This document shows, one piece after another, positions 10,360 to 34,964 of a stretch of DNA of 64,000 nt. How positions within the stretch are numbered: position 1 is the first letter of the stretch; each line of letters begins with the position of its first letter. The stretch is from Hydrogenimonas sp. SS33 (GTDB taxonomy: Bacteria > Campylobacterota > Campylobacteria > Campylobacterales > Hydrogenimonadaceae): NCBI RefSeq assembly GCF_040436365.1, contig NZ_AP026369.1:372001-436000 (forward strand), given 5' to 3'. The position numbers and the translations under genes were made by a program. The notes under the pieces were generated by a model. That model did not search any database. It saw nothing but the letters and a program-made list of their open reading frames with translations, and was not told where the DNA came from.

Positions 10360-11456
10360 TGTCCAGTTTCACCACGTTGTTGATGAAAGAGAAGTAGGGT
10401 TCCATACTGACTTCGAAGAAAGAAGTTGGTAGGCTGAGACATCTCGAATCAAGGCAAAAGAGAGATGAAACAGCACTACCATCGCAATGCGAGGACCAAC
10501 TCGCATGTACGCCAAAGTATACAGAAATCCGGAGCGAGCAATCAAGTGTTGGCTCGACGCTTCGGTGTCAGTGTCCAGACCGTCAGTAAGTGGCGTCATC
10601 GCCAGGAGACGGAAGATCGCAGTAGCCGGCCCCATACGATTCATTATGCATTGAGTGATTTGGAGCGGGAGCTTGTGCGCCTTGTGCGGACCAGTACCTG
10701 GATGCCGCTGGACGATCTGGTAGAGGCCCTGCAGAGTGTCATGCCCCATGCCAGCCGCTCCACGGTTTCTCGGACCCTGAGATCCTTGAAGATCAGCCAG
10801 GTTCCCCAGGAAGAACGTGCCAAAGCAAAAAAGTTCAAAGAGTATGTTCCGGGCTTCGTGCATATGGATGTGACCTATCTTCCCAAGATCGATGGCGTCA
10901 AATACTACCTCTTTGTAGCCATCGACCGGGCGACACGGTTGCTCTATTACAAAGTCTATCGAAGCAAAAGTGCCGCCAGCGCCCTCGATTTTCTCAAAGA
11001 GTGTGAACGCTTCTTTCCATTTACCATCACCCATATTCTGACCGATAACGGGATGGAGTTTACGGATCGCTTCAGCCAGGGACGTAAGGACCCCACCGGC
11101 AATCATCGTTTCGACAAGCTCTGCAGGGCATTCAACATCGAACATCGCCTCACGAAACCCTTTTGCCCGCAAACCAACGGGATGGTCGAACGGGCCAACG
11201 GGCTCATTAAGGAGCGAACCATCAAAATACAGAACTATGAGAATCTGCAGCAGATGATTGCCGATTTGGACAAGTTCCTGCTCTATTATCTCTTCAGCAG
11301 ACGCCATGGAGGTCTCAGAAAAGAACTGAAAGTCAAAACACCCTTTGAAGCACTACACTATTGGTATAATCTGGAACCTGAACTATTCAAAAAATCCCCT
11401 GAGATGTTCGAAGCCGACACATTGCTCTGGCTTGAACAACGTGGTGGAACTTGACA
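10360..11456 (+). mobile_element. IS481-family insertion sequence (1097 bp, complete)
   Basis: The ends are TGTCcAGTTtCACCACGTTG and the inverse of its right end; 20 of 22 terminal bases match, with TGT...ACA tips as in IS481. The flanks carry a 6-base direct repeat GATATT (10354-10359 and 11457-11462). One transposase gene fills the element. The intact ends, exact target duplication and complete ORF suggest a recent insertion. Confidence 0.9.
10465..11454 (+). CDS. IS481-family transposase
   Basis: 329 residues. An N-terminal helix-turn-helix (LARRFGVSVQTVSKWRHRQ, residues 29-47) binds the ends. The integrase-core catalytic residues are Asp135 (FVHMDVTYLP), Asp194 (ILTDNGMEFT) and Glu242 (TNGMVERANG), followed by the usual RRHGGLRKELKVKTPFEAL. 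The stop codon lies inside the right terminal repeat. Codon use and base composition are closer to the chromosome than to the A/T-rich cassettes around it. Confidence 0.93.
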   Translation: MKQHYHRNARTNSHVRQSIQKSGASNQVLARRFGVSVQTVSKWRHRQETEDRSSRPHTIHYALSDLERELVRLVRTSTWMPLDDLVEALQSVMPHASRSTVSRTLRSLKISQVPQEERAKAKKFKEYVPGFVHMDVTYLPKIDGVKYYLFVAIDRATRLLYYKVYRSKSAASALDFLKECERFFPFTITHILTDNGMEFTDRFSQGRKDPTGNHRFDKLCRAFNIEHRLTKPFCPQTNGMVERANGLIKERTIKIQNYENLQQMIADLDKFLLYYLFSRRHGGLRKELKVKTPFEALHYWYNLEPELFKKSPEMFEADTLLWLEQRGGT

Positions 11457-16305: not shown

Positions 16306-16335
16306 GTTTAAGTGAAAGTAATAAGGTTTCTTCCT

Positions 16336-18075
16336 ATGAATGAGTTAGAAATATTTTATAATGAAAATAAAAAACTTTTTGAATGGTCTTTACATTTAAT
16401 TCGTCATGATAAATACCAACATAAACAAATTACAAAAAAGAGTGGAGACAAAAGAAACCTTAATATTCCACCAATCCAAGTAAAAATTACTCAAAAAAAA
16501 CTTTGTAGTCTTTTAAATTCTATATATATCCCTTCTAAATCTGTTCACGGTTTTATAAAATCCAACAATAATGATCATCGAACAATATATTCGAATGCAA
16601 AAGTGCACATAAAAAAAAGAGTTGTTATCAATATAGATATATCAAATTTCTTTGATAGTATCAATTTTGGAAGAGTTAGGGGGATGTTTTTAAAAAGTCC
16701 ATTTAATCTAAATAAGAAACTAGCAACAAAATTTGCTCAACTAACAACTTATAATAATTCATTACCACAAGGTGCACCAACTTCGCCAGTCATATCAAAT
16801 ATAATATGTCGAAAAATGGATCATGAACTTATAAGATTTGCTAGACAAAATAAATTAATTTACACTCGTTATGCAGACGATTTAACATTTTCGACAAATA
16901 AGGAAATTGATGAAACAACAATTATTAATTCTCTTGAAGATATTATTATATCAAACGGTTTTGCAATCAACTCTAATAAAACGCGTGTGCAATATTCAAA
17001 TCAATCACAAATAGTAACTGGTTTAAAAGTTAATCGAAAGGTAAATGTTTCAAGAAAATATATTAGAACAATTAGAAGCATGTTGTATAGTTGGCTTAAT
17101 AAAGGATTAGAAAATGCAGCTGAAGAGCATTTTACTTTGCATTGCAAACAACCCGAAAAATACAAAAAAAGCAAAGAAGAGAGTTTCAAAAATAGTTTAT
17201 TGGGAAAAATTAATTTTTTAAGCCAAATAAGAGGAAAAGATGATGCTATTTATTTAAAATATTTATATACTTATTATTTAATAGATAGTAATTTTATACT
17301 AAATAAAAAGCTAGACTTTTTTGAAAAATTTGAATTGTATAATATTACACAAGAAAGAGCTAACATTCTTTTTAACCATATATATGATTCTATATTAATT
17401 TTTACCGAGGGTATTACGGATATTATATATATAAAAGAAGCTTTAAAATTTTTTCAAAATAAAAGTCAATTTCTAAACTTAAAATTAAGGTTTGCTTATT
17501 TCGGTGGCTACGCTGATCTGATTAAAATTCACAGAGCATTATATGACGATTCCATTAAAAAGACAGGAAAATTACAAGATATAGATATTGCAAACATTAG
17601 GCACTGTTTATTACCATATGTTAGGAATGATAGTAAATTTTGTTTTGTATTAGATGCAGATGATCCCGGTATAATTAATTACTTTAAAAAACTTAAAACA
17701 TATAATCATTTTTTGATTGATATTGAAAATCAAGGATATATAGAAAAACTTGTAGAATTTGAAAAAATTAAAACTATTATAAAAAAATATGGATATAAAA
17801 TTGATATAAATAGAACAGGACTTAAAAAAGACACCAAAAAGAAACTTGAGGAATATTTACAAAAAAGTAAATATCAAAAGTACAAGAATATTTCTGCAGT
17901 TTCAAACTATATTGCCTATGGTCAAAAAATACTGGAGAAAACATTTCTTGCAAAACAAATTTCAAAAACTAATAATGTAGATTATAGTAAATTTGAAAAT
18001 TTATTTAAATTTTTAGAGAAATTGCAATTTAATTATATACACCCAAAAAAATTATGCTGTAATTCCATATATTAA
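16336..18075 (+). CDS. retron reverse transcriptase fused to a TOPRIM domain
   Basis: 579 residues from ATG 16336 (AAGG nine bases upstream); GTG 16312 in frame would add eight. RT landmarks are the retron-specific NAKVH (residues 87-91, the NAxxH motif of region X), NIDISNFFDSI, QGAPTSPVISN (145-155), catalytic YADD (179-182) and VTGLKVN (227-233, the VTG motif of region Y). The C-terminal half has TEGITD (357-362) and FVLDADDPG (~438-446), the Glu and Asp-x-Asp of a TOPRIM nuclease fold as in OLD proteins. RT-TOPRIM fusions are known as a retron subtype in which the fused domain is the effector. Strongly A/T-rich, hence acquired. Likely anti-phage. Confidence 0.87.
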   Translation: MNELEIFYNENKKLFEWSLHLIRHDKYQHKQITKKSGDKRNLNIPPIQVKITQKKLCSLLNSIYIPSKSVHGFIKSNNNDHRTIYSNAKVHIKKRVVINIDISNFFDSINFGRVRGMFLKSPFNLNKKLATKFAQLTTYNNSLPQGAPTSPVISNIICRKMDHELIRFARQNKLIYTRYADDLTFSTNKEIDETTIINSLEDIIISNGFAINSNKTRVQYSNQSQIVTGLKVNRKVNVSRKYIRTIRSMLYSWLNKGLENAAEEHFTLHCKQPEKYKKSKEESFKNSLLGKINFLSQIRGKDDAIYLKYLYTYYLIDSNFILNKKLDFFEKFELYNITQERANILFNHIYDSILIFTEGITDIIYIKEALKFFQNKSQFLNLKLRFAYFGGYADLIKIHRALYDDSIKKTGKLQDIDIANIRHCLLPYVRNDSKFCFVLDADDPGIINYFKKLKTYNHFLIDIENQGYIEKLVEFEKIKTIIKKYGYKIDINRTGLKKDTKKKLEEYLQKSKYQKYKNISAVSNYIAYGQKILEKTFLAKQISKTNNVDYSKFENLFKFLEKLQFNYIHPKKLCCNSIY

Positions 18076-32980: not shown

Positions 32981-34051
32981 CTACTTTTTCGCGATTTCGT
33001 CCATCACCCCGGCCGCCTCCCTGAGACGCTCCTTGTCGAAATGGGTATAGATGCGGGATGTGTCGAGGCTGGCGTGTCCCAGGGCCTCCTGGACCAGGAC
33101 CAGATCCTTCTTTTTCAGGTAGAGCATCGTCGCAAAGGTGTGGCGCAGCATGTGGGCGCCGTTTTTCTCTTTGCGGATGCCCGCCTGCATCAAAATCTTC
33201 TCCACGATGCGGCTCACATAGGCCTGGGTGAGGGGCGTGCCCTTTTTGTTGCAAAAGAGCCAGTCGCTTTCACAGCGTCGCAGGCTTAGCCACTCGGTGA
33301 GGTAGGGTTTGATATGTGACCGGCGTATCATCACCACGCGGGCCTTGTTGCCTTTGCCGACAATGCGCACCAGATAGACATCCCCGTCGGGGATCAGGTC
33401 TTTGGTTTTGAGCTGCAGCGCTTCACCGACACGGATGCCGGTAAAGAGGATGAGTTTGATCAGAAGGCGGTTCCTGGCCGCTACGTCTGCGCGGAAAGGG
33501 TAGGTCTCTATCGTCTCCAAAAAGCGCTCCACTTCGCTTTCTTGCATGTAGGAGGGGAGTTTGGTGCCCCTTTTGCCCGCCAGGCCGCCCCAGTTTTTGA
33601 GTTCGATGCCGTAGTGGTGGGTCCGGCCGTCCTCTTCGGCGTTCTGCTTGTCGATGTAGCCGAAAAAGTTGATCATGGCGATGCGGTAGTTCTTCTTCGT
33701 CGCGTCTGAGAGGCCCGCCGTGGCGCTGGCGAGAAAGTCGCTGACGAGCTCTTCGTCGATCTCCCGCATACTTGCAAGGCCCAGTTCGGTCAGATAGCCG
33801 TAGAGCTTCTCCAGCGGCTTGAAATAGGTATTGATACCGATCAGCCCGGCGTTTCGCGCCTCTTTGGCCAGGCGGGAGAGGGATTCGATGGAGTCGACCC
33901 CCCGGCGAAGAGAACCGATGATACGCGCCAGGGCTTCGGGGTCCTTGACCTGACGGTTCGACAGGGAGTTGAGTTTGGAGTGCATATAGCGGCTTATCCA
34001 GAAAAGCAGCGTGCGATCGAAACGCGCTTCACAATCGAGCGGATAACGCAT
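32981..34051 (-). CDS. xerH: tyrosine recombinase XerH
   Basis: Chromosome-dimer resolvase of Campylobacterota that acts alone on dif. 356 residues. The catalytic set is visible: Arg in LFTGIRVGEALQLK, Lys in IVGKGNKARVV, HxxR in HMLRHTFATMLY, and His/Tyr in LGHASLDTSRIYTHFDKERL. It has no integron-specific extra domain, so it is not the missing IntI. A dif-like sequence lies 112 bases upstream. Confidence 0.92.
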   Translation of the reverse strand: MRYPLDCEARFDRTLLFWISRYMHSKLNSLSNRQVKDPEALARIIGSLRRGVDSIESLSRLAKEARNAGLIGINTYFKPLEKLYGYLTELGLASMREIDEELVSDFLASATAGLSDATKKNYRIAMINFFGYIDKQNAEEDGRTHHYGIELKNWGGLAGKRGTKLPSYMQESEVERFLETIETYPFRADVAARNRLLIKLILFTGIRVGEALQLKTKDLIPDGDVYLVRIVGKGNKARVVMIRRSHIKPYLTEWLSLRRCESDWLFCNKKGTPLTQAYVSRIVEKILMQAGIRKEKNGAHMLRHTFATMLYLKKKDLVLVQEALGHASLDTSRIYTHFDKERLREAAGVMDEIAKK

Positions 34052-34162
34052 TTTTTTCCTTTGGGTTTATTGCGATAAGCATAGCACAGAAAACCGTATA
34101 AAAAACGGTTAATAGCTACATGGAAACAAATACGGCTTCCTCGGTAGCCATACCGTACTAAA

Positions 34163-34190
34163 AGTATTGAAAACTATAATTTTCAAACTA
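34163..34190 (+). other. candidate dif site (difH-like)
   Basis: AGTATTGAAAA-CTATAA-TTTTCAAACTA: two 11-base arms around a 6-base centre. The inner seven bases TTGAAAA/TTTTCAA are perfectly inverted, and the outer bases are degenerate. This matches the layout of XerH target sites as I recall them (TTGAAAA-type arms). Placement beside xerH supports it. If right, the replication terminus is here. Confidence 0.6.
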
Positions 34191-34235: not shown

Positions 34236-34333
34236 GAACGTATGTTCTTTTGGAGCCTAATATGAAATTAACGTATGTTCATCTATAATATTTTTATTAG
34301 AACATATGTTCACCTTCTGAAGAACATCTGTTC
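34236..34333 (+). promoter_or_regulatory. four palindromic operators upstream of the TetR gene
   Basis: GAACGTATGTTC (34236-34247), TAACGTATGTTC (34269-34280), GAACATATGTTC (34300-34311) and GAACATCTGTTC (34322-34333) share GAAC-N4-GTTC. Centre spacings are about 33, 31 and 22 bases, that is three, three and two helix turns. The nearest gene is the TetR regulator, 37 bases on, so self-repression is likely. They cover the promoter region. Confidence 0.75.
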
Positions 34334-34370: not shown

Positions 34371-34964
34371 ATGCCGAAACAGACGAACACCAAGCAGAAA
34401 ATCAAGGAAGCGGCGATCGAACTGATCGCGAAATACGGTTACAGAGGCGCTTCGGTGCGCAAGATCGCGGCGGAAGTGGGAATTCGTGAAAGCGCCATCT
34501 ACAACCACTACGAAAACAAAGAGGCGATTTTGCGATCCATCATCGAAGAGATCTTCGTCACCCCTTTCGAATTCAAAAACGTGGAGGAAAAAGCGAAACG
34601 CGGGAAGCCTTTTTTAAGAGAGTTTATCGTCGCTTACAAACTGATCGCTTTCGACAAAAAGAAGGAGAAACTTTTCCGTGTTTTGGTGATAGAACTGTTT
34701 CAAAACAAAGCGTTGAGAGAGGCATTTTTACAGGAGTCTCATATGAAGGACGTGCAGCAGCTTTCAAAAGCCTTTTTCATCATGATGCAAGAGGGCCTCA
34801 TACGCTCCGCGGACCCGATGTTCATGGCCCAGGAGTTTCTCGCCCCCCTCTTCTACACCAGGCTGCACCTTTCGCTTTTGCGCATCGACGGCAAGCCCAC
34901 CACCTCCCTCTCGACCCAGTTCGAAAAGCATGTGGACTTTTTCTGGGAGTCGGTAGTGCTGTGA
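34371..34964 (+). CDS. TetR/AcrR-family transcriptional regulator
   Basis: 197 residues. N-terminal helix-turn-helix IKEAAIELIAKYGYRGASVR, KIAAEVGIRESAIYNHYENK, then a ligand-binding helical domain. ATG 34371 follows AAGGAG by nine bases. The gene is alone: its neighbours point away or converge, so the regulated genes must lie elsewhere unless xerH is affected. Four operators precede it. The ligand is unknown. Confidence 0.9.
   Translation: MPKQTNTKQKIKEAAIELIAKYGYRGASVRKIAAEVGIRESAIYNHYENKEAILRSIIEEIFVTPFEFKNVEEKAKRGKPFLREFIVAYKLIAFDKKKEKLFRVLVIELFQNKALREAFLQESHMKDVQQLSKAFFIMMQEGLIRSADPMFMAQEFLAPLFYTRLHLSLLRIDGKPTTSLSTQFEKHVDFFWESVVL

Follow-up and report, generated by a model that had tools for sequence, protein, structure and literature searches.

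Locus organization

The window analysed here is a stretch of 64,000 nucleotides from Hydrogenimonas sp. SS33, corresponding to genome positions 372,001-436,000. At about 406 kb of the genome, in the gap between the genes of a tyrosine recombinase and a TetR-family regulator, it contains a 28-mer with the sequence of a known difH site. In window coordinates, the locus comprises the following features:

32981-34051, minus strand: xerH, encoding a single tyrosine recombinase of 356 aa (phmmer, Pfam, catalytic residues)
34163-34190, plus strand: difH, unique in the genome, 28/28 identity with the difH of A. nitrofigilis
34163-34173: left arm of difH, AGTATTGAAAA
34174-34179: centre of difH, CTATAA
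34180-34189: right arm of difH, TTTTCAAACT, with an A at 34190
34236-34247, 34269-34280, 34300-34311 and 34322-34333, no strand: four operator-like palindromes of the GAACRNNYGTTC type in the gap between difH and tetR
34371-34964, plus strand: TetR-family regulator (Pfam PF00440, PF14246), conserved beside difH within the genus

The difH site

The complete 28-mer at 34163-34190, AGTATTGAAAACTATAATTTTCAAACTA, can be split into AGTATTGAAAA-CTATAA-TTTTCAAACTA, and its inner arms TTGAAAA and TTTTCAA are both exact. A preliminary description of this DNA had recognized these inner arms and placed a likely dif site directly beside xerH, which is confirmed here with a true XerH as the neighbor. All 28 bases are the same as in the A. 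nitrofigilis difH given in Table 2 of PMC3325230. The 11-6-11 layout holds for the left arm and the centre. The difH of H. pylori is described with a left arm of 11 bp and a right arm of 10 bp in PMC5357621, and as the arms AGTATTGAAAA and AGTTTGAAAA of the window site show this same asymmetry, the earlier layout overcounts the right arm by one base. The closeness to xerH stands, and 111 bases (34052-34162) lie between its start codon and difH.

The 28-mer occurs once in the genome (2,254,567 bases, single contig) when up to three mismatches are allowed, which bears out the anticipated uniqueness and agrees with the single copy that characterizes difH/XerH systems. The core TTGAAAA-CTATAA-TTTTCAA and the extra base of the left arm that mark these systems are both present. 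The pattern TTGAAAA-N6-TTTTCAA is found without mismatch only at the window site in the whole genome, and with one mismatch at 5 other places. The chance expectation for exact arm pairs, calculated from base composition, is 0.003 per genome, rising to 0.14 if the entire genome were as AT-rich as the gap between xerH and tetR. The G+C content of difH is 18%, versus 32% in the surrounding gap. An Rfam search of the window gave no match at gathering level, and a plasmid search with a difH 33-mer gave no match.

XerH and FtsK

The best solved relative of the recombinase is H. pylori XerH (5jjv/5jk0; phmmer E 1.1e-107, residues 1-352), with XerA (E 2e-24) and XerD (E 1e-22) following far behind. 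Its length falls within the approximately 353-363 aa of XerH proteins, an N-terminal PF18644 domain is combined with PF00589 (Pfam), and the RKHRHY set of catalytic residues, as named in PMC5241119, is retained as R207, K233, H300, R303, H326 and Y335. The genome encodes three tyrosine recombinases of the Phage_integrase family, and XerH is the sole one inside the window; the two others, which are 23% and 27% alike to XerH in a partial alignment, have the appearance of element integrases. An FtsK with a gamma domain is encoded at genome position 164,082, and difH recombination in H. pylori is described as requiring FtsK (PMC3325230).

An integron, which had been envisaged together with richness in IS and repeats, is not demonstrated around the site. 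Besides XerH the window contains no tyrosine recombinase, short tandem arrays amount to only 6 rows, and the only transposase among the 15 Pfam-scanned window proteins (rve, 10465-11454) lies about 23 kb from difH. The window also encodes a reverse transcriptase at 16312-18075 that matches the PADLOC model RT-Toprim_I-C (E 4.7e-185) and which we take to be a retron-type reverse transcriptase.

Position relative to the replication terminus

GC skew was read from one contiguous stretch of 425 kb (230-655 kb) and 24 sampled stretches elsewhere on the chromosome; the comparison of the two sides excludes stretch L021, in which the origin probably lies. All 11 stretches sampled on the side that extends from about 1.65 Mb across position 0 to 0.13 Mb have a positive skew, and of the 12 sampled between 0.69 and 1.57 Mb, 10 have a negative one. 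The dnaA gene is located at 1,623,718, where the skew switches from negative to positive, and lies roughly opposite difH, which is about 90 kb off the exact antipode. Within the contiguous stretch, the cumulative skew reaches its maximum at 439,306, which is 33 kb from difH and 3.3 kb beyond the window. A strand score that is based on k-mers and was trained with the sampled stretches is nearly flat from 340 to 470 kb and peaks at 469.8 kb, 64 kb from difH. When a change point with two means is fitted to the 425-kb stretch by least squares, 614 kb is favored over 406 kb, because the strongest negative skew begins only there. The skew of this genome is weak and, on a chromosome read in part, its turn is blurred.

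The expected turn of the cumulative skew at window position 34.2 kb is therefore not observed, with the maximum at 439.3 kb and the strand-composition peak at 469.8 kb. The broader proposal of a terminus inside the window is right as to the terminus zone, although the skew maximum itself falls just outside. Published offsets of difH from the skew maximum, in the table rows available to us, are 34.7 (A. butzleri), 28.6, 16.3, 21.8 and 24.0 kb, and the 33 kb found here compare with this range of 16-35 kb, even though the change-point fit disagrees. We read this as a difH that sits within a blurred terminus zone, at an offset similar to the published values of the phylum. At the strand-composition peak, a stretch of low G+C (0.45 and 0.39) at G000:C1:470,000-490,000 adjoins an integrase gene at 470,229; it probably represents a genomic island close to the terminus.

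Conservation in the Campylobacterota

The exact 20-base core was detected in 138 of the 397 phylum genomes examined, representing 18 of 68 genera, and a control with the reversed core gave 0 matches in the same genome set. According to a table read by eye, the core is single-copy in 136 of the 138 genomes. For the linkage to the recombinase gene, 61 xerH loci were fetched and the 57 with a gene start and at least 200 nt of upstream sequence were kept, leaving out L096, L098 and L100 (xerH fragments only) and L044 (no upstream sequence). With up to three mismatches, a site is found within 500 nt of xerH in 29 of these 57 loci versus 0 of 1140 shuffles. The other 28 loci, many of them from Sulfurospirillum, have no site within this distance at the same threshold, so the linkage is common and not universal. 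All nine loci that include upstream sequence and encode an XerH of 79% identity or more have a site no more than 170 nt away with at most one core mismatch; among named relatives, metagenome genomes of Hydrogenimonas come closest, with 86-88% identical XerH, which points to this genus. That difH and the recombinase gene are linked in most species was described in 2009 (PMC2731167), and for Campylobacter species the published distances show a core that is kept 36-215 kb away from xerH. The same 2009 account assigns XerCD instead of XerH to Sulfurimonas and Sulfurovum; the view that XerH acts on one dif site throughout the phylum is thus correct for the single copy here and does not extend to all members.

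Several variants were observed in these comparisons. Seven loci (L049, L054, L057, L061, L074, L084 and L089) carry a matching change in both arms, TTGGAAA/TTTCCAA, and in L061 and L057 one further change occurs in the centre; the symmetry of the variant suggests co-evolution with XerH. The site upstream of xerH in L052 has an intact right arm and a degenerate left arm (ATTGGCAACTATAATTTTCAA), and may mark the border of a further integrated element. In G137 and G088, two genomes that belong to one genus, the core is present in 6 and 4 copies. Inverted core pairs 226-483 bases apart occur at L101:7737 and 8220, L102:7103 and 7329, and L103:35 and 427; in translations read by eye from G137 and G088, a flagellin gene follows one inverted pair and sugar-transfer genes flank another. 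The multiple copies in these two genomes might represent XerH cassettes that are invertible or modular, or they might stem from the assembly.

The TetR-family neighbor

The tetR gene adjoins difH in 10 of the 12 close relatives that hold that side and is absent in L046 and L109; tetR is partial at a contig end in L042, and the contig of L110 ends before xerH. Three to four palindromes of the GAACRNNYGTTC type, read by eye, occupy the same gap in the 10 relatives with tetR. In the genome studied here, 10 sites match this palindrome with no more than one mismatch. As 4 of these lie in the promoter gap of tetR itself, the regulator looks like an autoregulator, and the four palindromes are probably its autoregulation sites, outside the function of dif. 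For three of the remaining six sites, five proteins encoded nearby were identified (GAPDH, a 2-hydroxyacid dehydrogenase, a zinc peptidase, a helix-hairpin-helix protein and an amylase-type enzyme), and they did not indicate a clear regulon. A role of TetR as nucleoid-occlusion factor was considered and rejected, as RefZ and SlmA appear among weak NCBIfam matches that are far below cutoff and the distribution of the palindromes speaks against it.

Phages at difH in other genomes

Arcobacter-like genomes carry filamentous phages at difH, next to xerH. One such prophage, at L147:4130-12208 (G397:C2:81130-89208), is flanked by two direct difH-like repeats and contains Rep (PF05840), secretin and Zot-family genes. 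It belongs to the genome of the named Arcobacter locus L085, in which a second site, TTGAAAACTATAAATTACAA, has the orientation of the intact difH at a distance of 8,059 bp; the two share 21 identical bases through the left arm and centre, and differ in the right arm. L085 carries relatives of the L121 phage genes at the same place. Judged from its sequence, the two-site layout around the L147 prophage looks like the attL/attR expected of phages that exploit Xer recombinases, the IMEX described in PMC5357621 and PMC9765430.

An exact-pattern scan of viral contigs gave three records with the core, and a looser difH pattern gave 18, of which 15 were new relative to the exact scan. At L121:813-10517, Zot-family, secretin and Rep genes abut one side of difH, and its opposite side is occupied by xerH and glyS. 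L122:225-6406 has a Zot-family gene and a stretch 54% identical to the L121 secretin, and abuts an exact difH core. No second att site was seen within the fragments L121 and L122, and a tblastn search of a phage collection with the Zot-family protein of L121 gave no match. Three Microviridae genomes from Peromyscus faeces match the difH query over 70-79% of its length. In the two of these rodent-gut microviruses that were inspected (L124:3409-3428 and L125:3471-3490), the exact 20-base core follows the pilot-protein gene and precedes that of the replication initiator. No report of a phage that uses XerH/difH was found among the titles and abstracts listed in literature searches, or in passages of PMC9765430, PMC5357621, PMC5241119 and PMC6813254. 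It may be that XerH/difH is a standing entry port for filamentous and microviral ssDNA phages throughout the difH-using Campylobacterota, with the window site as an empty port; we put the chances of this slightly below even.

Function of the site and alternative readings

With a unique site, its recombinase, an FtsK gene, a location in the terminus zone and conservation among relatives, we are nearly certain that the window site is the chromosomal difH of a Campylobacterota bacterium and that it serves dimer resolution by the XerH of the adjacent gene. By analogy to the published work with H. pylori and C. jejuni, XerH would bind both arms of difH, FtsK would bring the difH sites together, and two XerH-bound sites would synapse. 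A strand exchange across the central CTATAA would then convert chromosome dimers to monomers at cell division.

The location of the palindrome between the divergent genes xerH and tetR, 111 bases from the start of xerH, would also suit a role as operator or promoter element for one of the two, in which case it would be no recombination site at all. We consider this highly improbable, as the site is identical to a published difH, as its core is kept with at most one change in L046 and L109, which lack tetR, and as the Campylobacter core is conserved far away from xerH; moreover, the palindromes that are linked to tetR have a different sequence, GAACRNNYGTTC. The apparent use of difH by phages in related genomes could in turn suggest that the site was left behind as an attachment site by an integrated mobile element, and that the true dif is elsewhere. 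A single copy with both arms intact means that there is no attL/attR pair, the xerH and tetR neighbors are unchanged in relatives, and the closest competitor around the skew maximum, at genome position 434,876, lies inside a listed ORF and has a GC-rich centre and a single mismatch in the arms, which makes a leftover site the least probable reading of all.

Phage docking of the IMEX type, by elements that borrow XerH, would supplement dimer resolution and not replace it. The prophage between direct sites in L147, the related phages that abut difH in L121 and L122, and the microviruses with an exact core point to such docking. Against it, no such element is present at the window's own site, and integration is deduced from the att layout and was not observed, so that we regard docking as a serious possibility that falls a little short of an even bet. 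The assignment as difH, our preferred reading, locates the terminus zone of this bacterium and identifies its dimer-resolution system. The phage side result matters a little more than the window site itself: if phages use XerH, the single-recombinase system would be a simple model of how phages exploit the chromosome-resolution machinery.

Comparison with known systems

The difH described here is a new instance of a published system, real but ordinary. It resembles the difH/XerH of Arcobacter, Campylobacter and Helicobacter, as described in PMC2731167, PMC3325230 and PMC5241119, in site sequence, arm asymmetry, the single long recombinase, low G+C content, intergenic location, one copy, nearness to the terminus and the xerH neighbor. 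It differs in that a conserved tetR, accompanied by palindromes of its own, likewise starts in the gap, and in that its genus is not represented in the 24-species difH table of PMC3325230, which thereby gains one genus. A lone recombinase that is linked to its own dif site is shared with difSL/XerS, but XerS and XerH are stated to be phylogenetically unrelated in PMC2731167, and the window XerH scores 87 bits on the XerS model, whose cutoff is 267. With dif/XerCD the site has the function and the layout of roughly 28 bp in common, whereas that system uses two recombinases and other arm sequences, and XerH stays below the cutoffs of both the XerC and the XerD model. Phage hijacking of XerH/difH would parallel that of XerCD/dif.
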